NCBI RefSeq assembly: GCF_003058365.1
Contig: NZ_CP028858.1
Coordinates: 620,001-684,000, forward strand
Reading direction: 5' to 3'
From: Halococcoides cellulosivorans
GTDB lineage: Archaea; Halobacteriota; Halobacteria; Halobacteriales; Haloarculaceae
DNA: 64,000 nucleotides
Notes under the pieces: model-generated
What the model saw: only the letters and a program-made list of their open reading frames with translations
Told to the model about the DNA's origin: nothing
The model's database searches: none
In this document: one piece after another, positions 4,695-63,501 of the stretch
Position numbering within the stretch: the stretch's first letter is position 1
Layout of the letters: every line of letters begins with the position of its first letter
Position numbers and translations under genes: made by a program

Positions 4695-5102
4695 GGTTGG
4701 GGTGGGACACCCACGCCGAGCGGGACGGCCCCGACTGGGGTGGGTGCTCACTCCAGACCCATGTTAGATAACCTAATAAGCGCTCGCACGCAGTATCAGT
4801 CGAAAGAATTGGGCGATTGCCCTCCCGAAGAAATCGGGTATAGAGCTCCTTACAGTCGCTTCAGGCGGAGAAATTCCTCGAACAGCTTTGATTCAACGAT
4901 CGATAGCGAGTGGAACGATCCGTTTTCGTTATCGATAGCTAGATTCTCACCCAGATAAGCAGCGGCTACGAACGGTGGGGCGGGCGAATTCGACGCGATG
5001 GCGATTTTGGGGTGGTCGTGGGGTGTGCTATCAGGGGTTCGGGGACCGGGTGCTCGCGCGCGGTGGGGGATCGGGTTCGGGACGGTGGCAGGGCGGTGGC
5101 GG
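4695..5102. other. Intergenic region, pilin promoter side; otherwise no gene recognised
   Basis: About 400 bases of visibly lower GC than the surroundings. It contains the putative minus-strand pilin promoter near 4770-4785. Open frames here encode no recognisable domains and depend on the low-complexity repeat that follows, so none is called. Confidence 0.5.
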
Positions 5103-5166
5103 TGCGGAGCGGCGGCGGTGCGGAGCGGCGGCGGGGCGGAGCGGCGGCGGGGCGGAGCGGCGGCGG
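5103..5166. repeat. 16-base GC-rich tandem repeat, four copies
   Basis: Four contiguous copies of (T/G)GCGGAGCGGCGGCGG, units beginning at 5103, 5119, 5135 and 5151, differing only at the first base. Flanking bases continue as GGCGGTGGC imperfect repeats. The plus strand is strongly purine/G-rich here, so G-quadruplex or slipped-strand structures are possible. No coding role is evident. Confidence 0.85.
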
Positions 5167-5419
5167 TGGCGGCGGAACGGTGGCAGAGCGGGCGAGAGAT
5201 CGAGAAAGTGCCCCCGAGCCCCGAGTGTGGGTGTCGAACGCCCGATCGTGCCCGAACTGCCGACCGGCGCGACCTGCCCCAGGGCACAGCGCCGCCATAG
5301 AACAGCGTCGGCTAAGGTAGATTAGAATAGGGTATTTTGAACTACCCTATAGTTCACGACCGTACTGGCGTTTCGGGAGCGGGATCGGTCGGGCGGCCCT
5401 CCGCAGGTCTGGAACTGGG

Positions 5420-55452: not shown

Positions 55453-55537
55453 GCCGAGGTAGCCTAGCCTGGCCAAGGCGCCTGCTTCGAGAGCAGGTCT
55501 CCTCACGGACTCGGGAGTTCAAATCTCCCCCTCGGCG
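55453..55537 (+). tRNA. tRNA-Ser (anticodon CGA)
   Basis: Folds as an 85-base class II tRNA. Acceptor GCCGAGG (55453-55459) pairs with CCTCGGC (55530-55536), discriminator G at 55537. Anticodon arm CCTGC-TTCGAGA-GCAGG gives anticodon CGA (codon UCG). A long variable arm follows, as expected for Ser, then T-stem GGGAG/CTCCC around loop TTCAAAT. No CCA is encoded and no intron is seen. Confidence 0.95.
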
Positions 55538-55775
55538 TTTTGTCGAGATTTGAGCCCAGGAAGACACAGCCCGCGCAGCGAACGGAGTGAGCAGGACTGT
55601 CTTCCTCCGGTTCAAATCTCCCCCTCGGCGTTTCGTCGAGATTCGAACGAGGGAATCGAGCCCCGCGAGATTCGCGTGGTTCAAATCTCCTCCTCGGCGT
55701 TTTGTCGAGATTCGAACGAGGGAATCGAGCCCCGCGAGATTCGCGTGGTTCAAATCTCCCCCTCGGCGTGTCCCC
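55517..55775 (+). repeat. Array of partial copies of the tRNA-Ser 3' end
   Basis: GTTCAAATCTCCCCCTCGGC, the T-arm and acceptor 3' half of the tRNA, recurs at 55610, 55679 (one C-to-T change) and 55748. Copies B and C are exact 69-base units: the tRNA end, then GTTT(T/C)GTCGAGATT, then a shared segment AACGAGGGAATCGAGCCCC ending GCGAGATTCGCGTG. The segment between the real tRNA and copy B is different and contains an inverted repeat (GGAAGACA at 55559 and TGTCTTCC near 55599). Such duplicated 3' ends are what integrases leave or use as attachment sites. Confidence 0.9.
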
Positions 55776-59214: not shown

Positions 59215-60142
59215 TCATCTGGCCGCCATCGGCTCTCCGCTCCGGTCGAGGTCGAGAATCCGACGGACGGCCTCGCGCTCGCCGTCGGGGATCTGACTCC
59301 ACTCGACGGTGTCGGTGTCGTACAGGAAGGCCCAGACGTTGCAGTCGCCGTCGACGACGTGGTGTTCGAAGTCGTTCGAGAGCACGCGCATGCGCATCTT
59401 GCCCGCGTCGGAGACGTAGAGCAGCCCCTCGCTGTGGTCGGCGGAGTTGCCCGCCTGGGCCTGCAGGACGAAATCGCGCTCGCGTTCGGTCAGGCCCAGC
59501 GCCTCGACGGCGTCGTCACCGATGTCCTGGTGGCGCATCAGGACGCGAATGTCACACTGGTCGTAGATCTCCTTGGCCCGCGGATCGCCCATGAACTCGT
59601 CGACGGTCTGGCTGATGAGTGTCAGGCCACTGCCGTAGTGACGGCTGTGCCGGGCGAACAGGTTGAGCATCTCCAGGGCCTGGTCGTGGCCGAGCATGTA
59701 GTGCGCCTCGTCGATCATCACGACCATGTTCTCGGTCGAGCTTTTCGCGCGCTGGAACAGCCAGTCCAGCACGATGTGCATGATCAACCCCTCGTTCGAC
59801 CCGTCCGCCACCGCCGAGAGGTCGAACTGCACGACGCGGTCGTCGAGTCCGACCGTCGTCTCGCCGTTGAGATTCGACCGCTGACCACCCTCCGTGAAGT
59901 CTTCGAGGCCGAGCAGGACGCTCCTGGCGTAATCAGCGATGCGTTCGGCGTGTTCGGTCTGGTCGAGCGTTTCGGTGTCGATCGTCGTGATCTCTGCCGC
60001 GACCGTCTCCGGCACGTCCAGAAATTCTGCGGGCGGTCGCCCACTGGCCATCTTGTCGAGCACGTCGAGGACGTTCCCGATCGTCGGACTCGGACGGTGA
60101 TGTGTGCTCACGTCTTTCGTGATCCCCTGTTCGAGATACGCG
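59215..60142 (-). pseudogene. C-terminal remnant of a VirB4-like conjugation ATPase
   Basis: About 309 residues of the HerA/VirB4/TraC ATPase superfamily: Walker B MVVMIDEAHYMLGH, the following LFARHSRHYGSGLTLISQTVDEF and the late CDIRVLMRHQ block are present. The P-loop half is absent: haloarchaeal VirB4-like proteins are roughly three times longer and this frame starts mid-domain near YLEQGITKDVSTHHR. Sequence upstream on the same strand is unrelated and belongs to a plus-strand gene fragment, so the 5' part was lost or moved by rearrangement. The 3' end is intact, 21 bases from the DUF58 operon. Confidence 0.8.
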
Positions 60143-60145
60143 AAC

Positions 60146-60544
60146 CGGATCGCCCGTCTCGAAAGCAAGATTGACGGGCTAGCCGAGGGTGGCGGCAGTG
60201 GAACCTCCTACCTCGAAGCCGCCGCCAGCGATGGCGTCAAAAGCGCCATCGGTGGCGCTGCCATGGGGAGTATCCTCGGTCCCGGCGGCACACTCGCCGG
60301 GGCCGCCGGCGGGGCTATCTTCGGCGCTGCGAAAGGCGTCGCTGGCGAGTGGGGCGGAAACGTCGCCTCGCGACTCGGCGATGGCGACTCACTCGTCGGC
60401 GCTGCCAGAGGGGCGACCGGCGACCTCACGTCCGAAGTCAGCTCCGACTGGACCGACTTCGAGATGAGTGAGGGGCTCACCGGGAAGTTGAGTGAGTATG
60501 TCGGGATGGGTGGGGCGGATGACCACAGTAGCAATGATTACTAA
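60146..60544 (+). pseudogene. Orphan C-terminal tail of a TrbL/VirB6-like membrane protein
   Basis: Encodes RIARLESKIDGLAEG and then a Gly/Ala-rich hydrophobic tail (SAIGGAAMGSILGPGG, AGAAGGAIFGAAKGVAGEWGG) ending GGADDHSSNDY. The first 13 residues match RIAKLESKIESLADE in the complete membrane protein downstream (residue 438 on); after that the two tails are unrelated. No start codon fits: the frame is entered from the antisense of the VirB4 remnant. Seven bases after its stop begins the partner gene, the same arrangement as in the intact copy. It may be a silent tail cassette or simple debris. Confidence 0.7.
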
Positions 60545-60551
60545 TCAAATT

Positions 60552-61325
60552 ATGAAAACTGAAATACTTGGAACGAGAGACATTGACATAGGTGTTGAGG
60601 TCATTGACCAACAGGAAGTAAGGCATGTCGTTCAAGTGAGGTGGGATGGCGGGATCGAGAAACATACCGTAGATAAAAATACCTACCCCCACGCCGTCGA
60701 GGACCGCACCCTGGACGAGCAGAAGGTCATGACCCAAACCAGCCACCGCGCGAAACTCGCCGCCCAGCGCGAGTTCCCCGACGCCGACATTCTCGATCCC
60801 GAGTGGGTCCCCGAACAACTCGAACGTGCGATCGAGGCGATTCAGGCCATGCCCGTCGATCGCTTTGCCGCCGAGTTCGGCACCTACTACCGGTACGTCA
60901 CCGCCACCTACGAGGACACTGACGTGCCGGAGGGCAGCGCCGAGGGCATCTACCAGCCCTTCCTCGTCACCGACGACAACGAGATCGAATACGTCCCCAC
61001 GCCCGTCGTCCAGTACGAGGACCTCGCCACCGGCGAGTCCCAGATGACACACCGCGAGTCCCGCTTCGAGGAGTTGGTGGACGAACCGCGCTTCACCAAA
61101 TTCACCGCCACGCTCCCACCGCTTGAGATCGACGACGGAGCCTATGAGTTCCCCGAGGGATTCCAGATCTTCCTCATCGAGCACTTCGGCGCGAAGATTC
61201 GCGATGTCTATCGCCACGTTGGCGAGGACCCACCCGAACCCTACGACGAGGCCGACGGCATCGGCAAGTTCCTCACCGCGGCTGACGACGAGTACTACCG
61301 CGACTTCATCGAGATGATTCAGTAG
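60552..61325 (+). CDS. Partner protein, copy 1 (GVEVID family)
   Basis: 257-residue acidic soluble protein, family not recognised. Residues 1 to about 45 (MKTEILGTRDIDIGVEVID then VRHVVQVRWDGGIEKH) form a compact beta-rich module encoded by visibly AT-rich DNA. The rest (FPDADILDPEWVPEQLER onward) is GC-rich and helical to beta. It is paralogous over the visible length to the gene at 63514, sharing GVEVID, RH-V-V-W-G-IEKH, DILDP and a following YY pair. Immediately downstream of the orphan tail. An immunity or chaperone role for the upstream membrane protein is conceivable but unproven. Confidence 0.75.
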   Translation: MKTEILGTRDIDIGVEVIDQQEVRHVVQVRWDGGIEKHTVDKNTYPHAVEDRTLDEQKVMTQTSHRAKLAAQREFPDADILDPEWVPEQLERAIEAIQAMPVDRFAAEFGTYYRYVTATYEDTDVPEGSAEGIYQPFLVTDDNEIEYVPTPVVQYEDLATGESQMTHRESRFEELVDEPRFTKFTATLPPLEIDDGAYEFPEGFQIFLIEHFGAKIRDVYRHVGEDPPEPYDEADGIGKFLTAADDEYYRDFIEMIQ

Positions 61326-61386
61326 CGACGAGGCTGGCTGTGAGTTCTCCAGAGGAATTTTTGTCGCGGGGAGAGTTTCCTGAACC

Positions 61387-63501
61387 GTGAGCGTCGCCGT
61401 CAGCAGTCCCGCGCTCGCCCCATCCCTGAGCCGGGCGTCTTTCCCGTCCATTGATGACCCCTACCGACTGGGCCAGCGCGCGCTCGCCGCCCTGATCCTC
61501 CTCGTCGCCGTCAACCCCTCGCTCACCGGCGGCGGGACCGAATACGGCCTCATGGCCTACGTGCTCATGGCCCACAACGCCGCCATCGACTACATTCTCA
61601 ATCCCGCCGACCTCTTCGATTTCACACTCGTCGATATCAGTGCCATCACCGGTCTCCTCGCCGCTGGGGGTGCCGCTGGCGGGGCCGCCATCGGCCTGGC
61701 CGCACTCTCCGGGGGCACGCTCGCCATCGCCATCATCGGCCTGTTCGTCCTCATCGGCGCCCTCGTCGGTCTCGGCCTCCTCTTCATGTACTTCCTTTTG
61801 ATCTCCCGCCAGATCGTCGTCTACCTCACCATCGCCATTTTGCCGCTCTTGCTCACCTTCTGGGTGTTCGACGTCGGTCCCATGAAGTACGGCAAGAAGC
61901 TCTCCGATAAGCTCTTCAAGGCCACCGGGATGCTCATCCCGCTCGGCCTCATCATTGCCGCACTCTTCCGTCTCGGCGTCGAACTCATCAAGGTCAACAA
62001 CATCGACTTTGGCGTCGCCAACGAGACGTCCGCCAGCGCCGCGGGCGGGGCCGCCCCCGTCGCCACCGACGCCGCCTTCAACTCCAGTTCCGCCTCGATG
62101 GTCACCACCATCCAGCAGATCACCTTCCCCTTCGGCGGGATGCTCGCCATCGCCATGATCGTCACCATGCTCATGCTCGGCGCGCTCTCCACGGCCGGCA
62201 TGGGCGCTGCGGCGAATATGGCCGCCGGGCTGGCCAAGAAGGGCGCTCGTGGGGGCAAGCGGGTCGGCTCGAAGGCCACGAATCGCCTCGGTGGCTCCGA
62301 TAGCGCGCTCATGGGCACGATGGGCGGGTTCGTCCCCGGCATTGGTGAGGGCGACGACGACAGCCAGTCGTTCTCCAGCAACACCGGCATGGACGACTCC
62401 ATCGCAGACGCGCCAGAGCCGGTTGCCGCCGCTGGCGACACCGCCGGCCAGGAGTACGCCGACGTTCCCGACGACGGACAGACTAGCCAGATCGACTCGA
62501 CCGGAACGTCCGACTCGACCGGCACGGCCGACGACGCGGCCGTCGTCGCTGGGACTGAGGCGACCCAGACTGGCGACAGCACCGACGAGCGTGCCAGCAC
62601 TGGTGGGAGCCCAGGGAGTCCGCCACCTGACGACGGCGAGACTGGCGCGAGTGAGGGCACGAGCGACGACGGGCCTTCGACGCGCGACCTCGAACAGCGC
62701 ATCGCAAAACTCGAATCCAAAATCGAGTCGCTGGCCGACGAGAGCACCGCCGCGGCGACCGCACCGGCTGGGCCCGACGAGACGAGCGAGGCCGACGCAG
62801 AGAGTGATGACGGTGAGCCCGACCCGCTGGATGTCGATCCCGAAGAGGCCGACGCCGACGGCCTCGTCCAGTCGGACGAGTACTATCTCGATGCCGCCGA
62901 TGGCGATCGCAAGAAAGCACGCGATCTGAAACGCAAGGATCTCGTCGTCCAGCGCCTGGCCGACGACGGCGATATTCCGATCTCGAAGGAAGTCGCCGAA
63001 GAGAGCATCAAAGACAAGTTTGGTGACTGGTACAACGACGGCATCGAGAAGATAGAAGACGGGACCGTCGGCGATGCACTCTCCGATTCGCGAGTCCTCT
63101 CGACGCTCAGCGTCCCGGCGAGCGAAGTCGCCGGCCCAGTGGCTCGCGTGGGTGGCGAGGCCGTCGGGCAAGTCCTGGGCATTCCTGGAGTCGGTGATGC
63201 CGCCGAGGCCGCGGGTCGTGTCGCGCCGTTCGGCGCAGCCGCGTTGAAGCAAGGTGGCTGGGGCATGGCGGTAGCGGTCGGGCGACGGGGAGCCGCGAAG
63301 GCCCACGACACCGTCGCGTCCGGGTTCGGGACGGCCGTCGAAGTGGGCGGCAACCGGGTCAGGGGTGTCAAACAGCGCCTCAGTCGCGGTGGGTCCGATC
63401 CCGATGGGTCGGATGGGCCAGATGAGTCTGAGGCCAATACCTCAGAGAATCGATTCGAAGGAACCGAAGATGATGAAGACGACTCAACGGGCAGTGAGTA
63501 A
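61387..63501 (+). CDS. TrbL/VirB6-like multi-helix membrane protein with long variable C-terminus
   Basis: 704-residue protein. Residues 1-300 contain about seven hydrophobic segments (including TLAIAIIGLFVLIGALVGLGLLF and FPFGGMLAIAMIVTMLMLGAL, the first written here as one run of short helices), resembling the polytopic core of type IV secretion TrbL/VirB6. An acidic Ser/Thr/Asp-rich linker (about 310-435) follows, then the helix DLEQRIAKLESKIESLADE (about 434-452). A distinct tail (about 500-704) has amphipathic and Gly/Ala-rich stretches. A TATA-like GAATTTTTG about 25 bases before the GTG start suggests its own leaderless transcript. Homology to VirB6 is by topology and context, not by a sharp motif. 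Confidence 0.65.
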   Translation: MSVAVSSPALAPSLSRASFPSIDDPYRLGQRALAALILLVAVNPSLTGGGTEYGLMAYVLMAHNAAIDYILNPADLFDFTLVDISAITGLLAAGGAAGGAAIGLAALSGGTLAIAIIGLFVLIGALVGLGLLFMYFLLISRQIVVYLTIAILPLLLTFWVFDVGPMKYGKKLSDKLFKATGMLIPLGLIIAALFRLGVELIKVNNIDFGVANETSASAAGGAAPVATDAAFNSSSASMVTTIQQITFPFGGMLAIAMIVTMLMLGALSTAGMGAAANMAAGLAKKGARGGKRVGSKATNRLGGSDSALMGTMGGFVPGIGEGDDDSQSFSSNTGMDDSIADAPEPVAAAGDTAGQEYADVPDDGQTSQIDSTGTSDSTGTADDAAVVAGTEATQTGDSTDERASTGGSPGSPPPDDGETGASEGTSDDGPSTRDLEQRIAKLESKIESLADESTAAATAPAGPDETSEADAESDDGEPDPLDVDPEEADADGLVQSDEYYLDAADGDRKKARDLKRKDLVVQRLADDGDIPISKEVAEESIKDKFGDWYNDGIEKIEDGTVGDALSDSRVLSTLSVPASEVAGPVARVGGEAVGQVLGIPGVGDAAEAAGRVAPFGAAALKQGGWGMAVAVGRRGAAKAHDTVASGFGTAVEVGGNRVRGVKQRLSRGGSDPDGSDGPDESEANTSENRFEGTEDDEDDSTGSE

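Follow-up and report, generated by a model that had tools for sequence, protein, structure and literature searches.

The tRNA-linked repeats (TLRs) of E. coli, among them the RtT repeats of tyrT, were described by Egan and Landy (1978) and Rudd (1999) (PMC8144298). They are located 3′ of tRNA or rRNA genes in one to five copies per locus and end in the 3′ end of the upstream gene, with an identity of 18–19 bp. The function of most TLRs is unknown (PMC8144298). For comparison with the archaeal units presented here, five E. coli tRNA loci besides tyrT were analyzed. At tyrT/tyrV, argQZYV and lysV, where the CCA is encoded, the copies end exactly at the mature end (A76) and start at position 58/59 (A58/A59) after a GAGT motif. 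An inverted arm of local sequence was found in front of the Tyr TLR (GGGGAAGGAT) and of one Arg TLR (GGGAGGAT), and was weaker or no better than in shuffled sequences for the other arg TLRs and lysV. The number of TLR copies varies among strains, including at tyrT.

A comparable layout was found downstream of a serine tRNA gene in the window, i.e., the whole 64-kb stretch of DNA analyzed. The copies of the tRNA end belong to units, which are discrete, gene-free insertions of 49–230 bases. The order of elements is tRNA end, hp1 (a leader or terminator-like hairpin), R'' (an inverted arm complementary to the T-arm), hp2 (the inner hairpin), a G, the second tRNA end and the original flank. For the serine locus, the following features were determined:

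55453..55537, + strand: tRNA-Ser(CGA) gene (ARAGORN; Rfam RF00005, 56 bits)
55518-55537: block T54-N73 of tRNA-Ser(CGA), which is duplicated downstream
55538..55544, + strand: leader TTTTGTC of unit 1, a very short T-rich hp1 segment (sequence)
55545..55556, + strand: inverted arm R'' of unit 1, GAGATTTGAGCC (inverted repeat I2)
55557..55608, + strand: inner hairpin hp2 of unit 1, type A, CAGGAAGACACAG...GACTGTCTTCCTCC (fold)
55611..55630, + strand: copy 1 of tRNA-Ser T54-N73, 0 mismatches
55638..55648, + strand: inverted arm R'' of unit 2, GAGATTCGAAC, complementary to the copy save position 57 (sequence)
55649..55677, + strand: inner hairpin of unit 2, includes CCCCGCGAGATTCGCGTG (sequence; TRF, 69-bp period)
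55680..55699, + strand: copy 2 of tRNA-Ser T54-N73, 1 mismatch (CTCCTCC)
55700..55748, + strand: unit 3, a near-identical duplicate of unit 2 (97% identity, spacing 69)
55749..55768, + strand: copy 3 of tRNA-Ser T54-N73, exact

The original prediction of three additional tRNA-Ser 3′ ends downstream of the gene was confirmed by ARAGORN and sequence comparison, and the positions it gave (55610, 55679 and 55748) are those of G53 in the three copies, each of which is preceded by GG. Its spacing of 69 bases holds for the last two intervals only, since the copies follow at distances of 93, 69 and 69 bases. Likewise, the approximately 14 flanking bases reported to be repeated along with the tRNA end (TTTTGTCGAGATT) follow the tRNA and the first two copies and are missing behind copy 3, where the native 3′ flank presumably resumes at 55769, as judged from the clean insertions at other loci. 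The near-identity claimed for the 69-base units applies to units 2 and 3 (97%), which are a recent tandem duplication, but not to the first unit, whose inner hairpin is different. The leader TTTTGTC opens all three units, and the first bases of the inverted arm are also common to them. In unit 1, R'' is 92% complementary to the T-arm copy GGTTCAAATCTC. The type A inner hairpin of this unit also adjoins Phe, Gly, Leu and Ala tRNAs in the same genome and is present in 25 named Halobacteria contigs. A chance origin of the serine copies is excluded, because by our own arithmetic an exact 20-mer is expected approximately 1e-7 times per 128 kb and because the same layout is found at many other tRNAs.

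The array is flanked by genes for a thioredoxin and a short-chain dehydrogenase on one side and by DUF4129/DUF58 genes on the other. An Rfam search of the window gave only chance matches to known RNA families besides the tRNA itself, and RtT was not matched up to E=5. Elsewhere in the window, a TraG/VirB4-like P-loop ATPase gene (− strand) and a gene for a large membrane protein (+ strand; TrbL-like by eye, no Pfam match) occupy positions 59215-63501, a possible conjugation-type element with no integrase in the window. A GC-rich tandem array with a 16-bp unit (GCGGCGGCGGTGCGGA, 4.8 copies) is located at 5078-5175.

Next, the tRNA loci of the source genome were taken to count the units. Copies were found downstream of 22 of 59 tRNA sequences, with a total of 29 copies, 21 of them exact. 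In three other genomes, units adjoin 14 of 47 (G012), 17 of 45 (G031) and 20 of 43 tRNAs (G024), so that in a haloarchaeal species nearly half of all tRNA genes can have units. No units were present at the 28 tRNAs checked in G138, a nearly complete Halobacteriales genome. A BLAST search with the serine array against its own genome identified four further sites, all adjoining tRNA genes. The copy in each unit fits its nearest upstream tRNA, with Arg, Lys, Ile, Val, Tyr and other tRNAs having their own versions. A generic palindrome pattern matched 17 times in the source genome (reversed control: 0), and all of these sites coincide with tRNA loci. Clusters comprising some twelve additional tRNA genes with low scores were observed in the source genome (G000:C1:2633600-2639300) and in G012 (G012:C1:2778898-2783300). 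They are probably located on a provirus or other foreign element, and no units were seen beside the tRNAs of the former cluster.

In a sample of the phylum, this strict pattern was identified in 55 of 60 Halobacteriales and in none of 236 other Halobacteriota, while the control gave 0 matches everywhere. A scan of named genomes resulted in 25 positive contigs, all from Halobacteria (Halorubrum, Haloarcula, Natronomonas, Halovivax, Halorientalis and others). In nearly all of them the motif lies directly 3′ of the tRNA that is copied; in the exceptions the tRNA is beyond the fetched piece or the copy has diverged. Altogether, 152 units downstream of tRNAs compare with 4 upstream matches in a sample that is enriched for loci fitting the search patterns, so that frequencies are to be taken from the whole genomes. 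No description of the haloarchaeal units was found in the literature searched, which excluded most subscription journals, and they are apparently a so far undescribed archaeal counterpart of the TLRs.

The boundaries of the duplication were determined from 113 first copies. The identity to the tRNA is 0.37 at position 51 and 0.82 at position 52, ranges between 0.96 and 1.0 from 53 to 73 (except position 57 with 0.90) and drops to 0.52 at position 74. The duplicated block thus extends from G53/T54 to N73 (20–21 bp) and ends sharply at the mature tRNA end. Exact copies were found in 115 of 152 distinct units, and an array holds 1–5 copies. As the archaeal copies have no CCA, copying from the mature tRNA was rejected and the template is the gene. 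The copies end at 76 where the CCA is encoded, as in E. coli, and at 73 in its absence; the end of the copy is therefore the end of the gene, which is the boundary that selection for an intact tRNA after insertion into the T-loop would predict.

The inverted arm R'' is complementary to tRNA positions 53–64, with background values from 65 on. At positions 62, 63 and 64, it matches the local tRNA with frequencies of 0.83, 0.67 and 0.45, compared to 0.52, 0.42 and 0.27 for other tRNAs with the same T-loop. Position 57 covaries with the arm (A-T 81, G-C 39, other 24; n=144). Since ungapped complementarity stops at 64, both an inverted copy of the complete tRNA end (53–73, by snap-back) and a t-element or minihelix for tRNase Z were rejected. 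Gapped complementarity at 66–73 with up to 2 mismatches was found in 54 of 144 units, with about 24 expected, a weak excess that is partly due to one Arg lineage. When folded with DNA parameters, the R''-hp2-R' segment has a mean z of −3.8 compared to shuffled sequences, and 85% of the units are below −2. The inner hairpins belong to few families, the commonest being CCTGGAAGTCGCAGC...GACCGTCTTCCTCCGG. The loops in window positions 55538-55768 and in most units are often GAGCGAAGCGAG/GAACGGAGTGAG, i.e., C-GNA-G triloops beside tandem GA. The DNA hairpin d(GCGAAGC) is unusually stable, and such stability would suit a role as single-stranded DNA. A second kind of GC-rich hairpin, with the ends ..GCTCA/CTCGG/CTCAG, was observed at four loci (L152, L157, L005 and L040), where it sits within the tRNA copies at TTCAAA/TCCC and not in the tRNA itself.

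The covariation of the arm with the local tRNA and the folding far above shuffled sequences would also be expected if the units were functional RNAs, transcribed as tRNA trailers and folded into hairpins with a tRNA-like 3′ end, which would serve in processing, as an sRNA or as a decoy, with the copy maintained by selection. T-rich stretches are indeed located 3′ of the tRNA and of the copies, and rrA/B/F, which belong to the TLRs of E. coli, are processed sRNAs that bind Hfq and CsrA in vitro (PMC8144298). However, two close species, most of whose tRNAs are identical, deviate from each other in the presence or number of units at 11 tRNAs, the G138 genome has none at 28 tRNAs, and no Rfam family is matched. 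As the arm ends at 64, there is also no continuous acceptor-T minihelix in most units. A function as RNA is therefore regarded as a distinctly improbable explanation.

The original prediction interpreted the serine copies as a stack of attachment sites from elements with an integrase gene that had repeatedly integrated and been lost. Blocks of identity from the T-loop to the tRNA end are indeed typical of tRNA att sites (PMC8371274), and a 1.5-kb insert between two tRNA-Gly copies was found in Halorientalis marina (L091:2750-4215). It carries genes for a DUF7437/TrmB-like regulator and a weakly PIN-like protein and is the only gene-bearing insert seen between copies. By contrast, no tyrosine recombinase is encoded in the 64-kb window or next to the serine array, and elsewhere such recombinases are not located close to arrays and are equally numerous in pattern-negative genomes. 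The elements that were expected between the copies in related genomes were not found either, since the orthologous serine locus of 29 relatives has no kb-sized insert. Unlike random remnants, the units have a palindromic architecture and hairpin families in common, and they are nearly absent from viral and plasmid collections: none were detected by BLAST in INPHARED phages and PLSDB plasmids, a single IMG/VR contig (L079) has one unit, and with a broad pattern none of the 80 loci listed of 120 IMG/VR stretches was TLR-like. Given the lack of a nearby integrase and of kb inserts at the serine locus, and with one IMG/VR contig as the sole viral or plasmid carrier, scars of mobile elements were rejected as the source; we hold the chance of this interpretation to be slight. 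In haloarchaea, short-spaced repeats of tRNA 3′ ends should thus not, as a rule, be taken for traces of integrated viruses or plasmids. A different kind of insertion was observed in a Natronomonas MAG (L083), where the anticodon region of tRNA-Ser(TGA) on the reverse strand is interrupted by approximately 428 nt encoding a PD-(D/E)XK endonuclease (PDDEXK_5, E=9e-36). This insertion resembles a tRNA intron that carries a homing endonuclease gene.

The assumption that the tRNA 3′ end was duplicated by insertion was borne out. At the orthologous serine locus of the 29 relatives, the copy number ranges between 0 and 4, and many loci differ in their units within two congeneric pairs with mostly identical tRNAs. 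In the close species G024 and G332, filled and empty sites could be aligned at four loci (Asn-GTT, Val-GAC, Val-TAC and Glu-TTC). In the empty site, the native flank follows the tRNA immediately, and the sequence behind the copy in the filled site can be aligned with this flank starting at its first base, with scores of 348, 299, 164 and 323, respectively, compared to 16–67 for the interior of the units. The same clean insertion pattern was found at Arg-TCT in G012/G031. Many other loci that vary between species have decayed or unalignable flanks, and no clean insertion is visible there. In the clean cases, R'' already has tRNA-specific T-stem bases at Asn and Glu and is confined to the T-loop at Val-TAC. 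At Glu-TTC the leader resembles the native flank; the duplicated stretch is therefore longer than 20 bases at this locus, and tandem duplication may account for part of the process.

The original prediction had named simple replication slippage as the better explanation if relatives varied in copy number without ever having an insert. This variation was observed, but it is not decisive, because the units are precise insertions with differing inner hairpins, and slippage or unequal exchange fits only the 69-base pair of units. In a more general form, the replication fork would copy the tRNA end, snap back and resume (template switching by hairpin-driven slippage), for which no dedicated enzyme is needed. 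Besides units 2–3, this would account for the ABAB arrays at Tyr, Leu-TAA and Ser-TGA, which are plain tandem duplications, for the copy of native flank in the Glu-TTC leader and for the inverted arm of local sequence, which is expected from snap-back copying. However, its breakpoints should scatter, whereas in many different tRNAs and species the duplication has the same limits, 53/54 and 73, and random switching has no source for the few recurrent hp2 families common to different tRNAs and genera. Pure slippage was rejected because of these constant boundaries and shared hairpin families, and template switching is considered unlikely as the origin of the units.

In G031, Gly-CCC and Ser-GGA have a 66-base hp2 with 99% identity between the two sites, while arms and copies are local at each of them. 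The orthologous units of G012 and G031 at Ser-GGA and Asp have hp1 and R'' in common but different hp2. One hp2 family was identified at Arg-TCT, Glu-CTC, Glu-TTC, Ser-GGA and Ser-TGA across species. Near-identical inner hairpins at different tRNAs with local arms therefore indicate that the hairpin moves or is exchanged. In addition, distal copies are more decayed than proximal ones in 16 arrays and less decayed in 5 (a modest sign test), as would result from the entry of new units next to the tRNA.

The explanation we favor, with roughly even confidence for and against, is that the units are archaeal TLR-like duplicative hairpin insertions at tRNA T-loops, which are moved by hairpin-dependent recombination. 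A short non-coding DNA would enter the tRNA gene at the T-loop/3′ end, and the tRNA is left intact because its last 20–21 bases (G53/T54-N73) are duplicated. In this DNA recombination, a putative host or trans-acting enzyme would recognize the single-stranded R''-hp2-R' palindrome, somewhat as the integron integrase recognizes attC hairpins, a likeness in working principle only. Arrays would grow by repeated insertion on the tRNA-proximal side and afterwards by unequal exchange, with the 20-bp copies as partners, as for units 2–3 in the window. Evidence against this explanation comes from the tyrosine recombinases, which do not adjoin the arrays and are as numerous in pattern-negative genomes, from the loci with decayed or unalignable flanks and from the leader at Glu-TTC. 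The local R'' may originate from fold-back synthesis, base pairing with the target, tRNA-specific lineages or later selection.

Several known systems have features in common with such insertions. In casposon and CRISPR integration, insertion beside a fixed site duplicates this site and leads to a polarised array with a decayed distal end. The haloarchaeal units resemble this in target duplication and in the polarised array with a decayed distal end, but their inserts are palindromic and have an arm of local tRNA sequence. With tyrosine-integrase att sites in tRNAs (T-loop sublocation) they share the identity block from the T-loop to the 3′ end and the regenerated tRNA; they differ in being gene-free units of 49–230 bp without an integrase, with one hairpin class at many tRNAs. 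Integron attC sites, which have also been reported in archaeal MAGs (PMC9668308), resemble the units in being imperfect palindromes whose outer feet (R''/R') are paired, in having inner arms and in forming polarised tandem arrays. Here, however, there are no gene cassettes and no IntI above the family cut-off, the feet come from the tRNA T-arm, and the site is a tRNA. None of 39 genomes exceeded the TIGR02249 cut-off for IntI, and only matches below the cut-off were found. REP/BIME and the PATEs of Haloquadratum (PMC3119063) are likewise small mobile palindromes without their own transposase. PATEs make no target duplications (PMC3119063), and the unit motif differs from them in that all its sites in the source genome adjoin tRNAs.

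The closest similarity is to the E. coli TLRs, with units directly downstream of the tRNA, 1–5 copies and a 3′-end copy of 20–21 bp. The haloarchaeal copies start at G53/T54 and stop at N73, in contrast to A58/A59 and A76 in E. coli. There is no common inner hairpin sequence and no Rfam match, and the results support a common layout rather than homology. Furthermore, in Halobacteria the proportion of tRNA genes with units reaches about half, and the hairpins reassort between tRNAs. As a more far-reaching and rather doubtful possibility, Halobacteria may have a dedicated single-strand hairpin recombination system with the tRNA T-loop as universal site, in which the inner hairpins would be gene-less cassettes exchanged among tRNAs, the tRNA end would be rebuilt at each insertion, and the same principle would operate in bacteria in the form of the E. 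coli TLRs.

In the tRNA operons of E. coli, the TLRs have remained a puzzle ever since 1978. With an archaeal counterpart that spans a whole class and provides many natural insertions, clean empty sites and reassorting hairpins, their origin can be tested by comparative analysis, and Haloferax, Haloarcula and Halorubrum offer tractable hosts in which the machinery can be searched for. If a dedicated recombinase is indeed involved, it would represent a new and harmless route for the insertion of DNA at tRNA genes.
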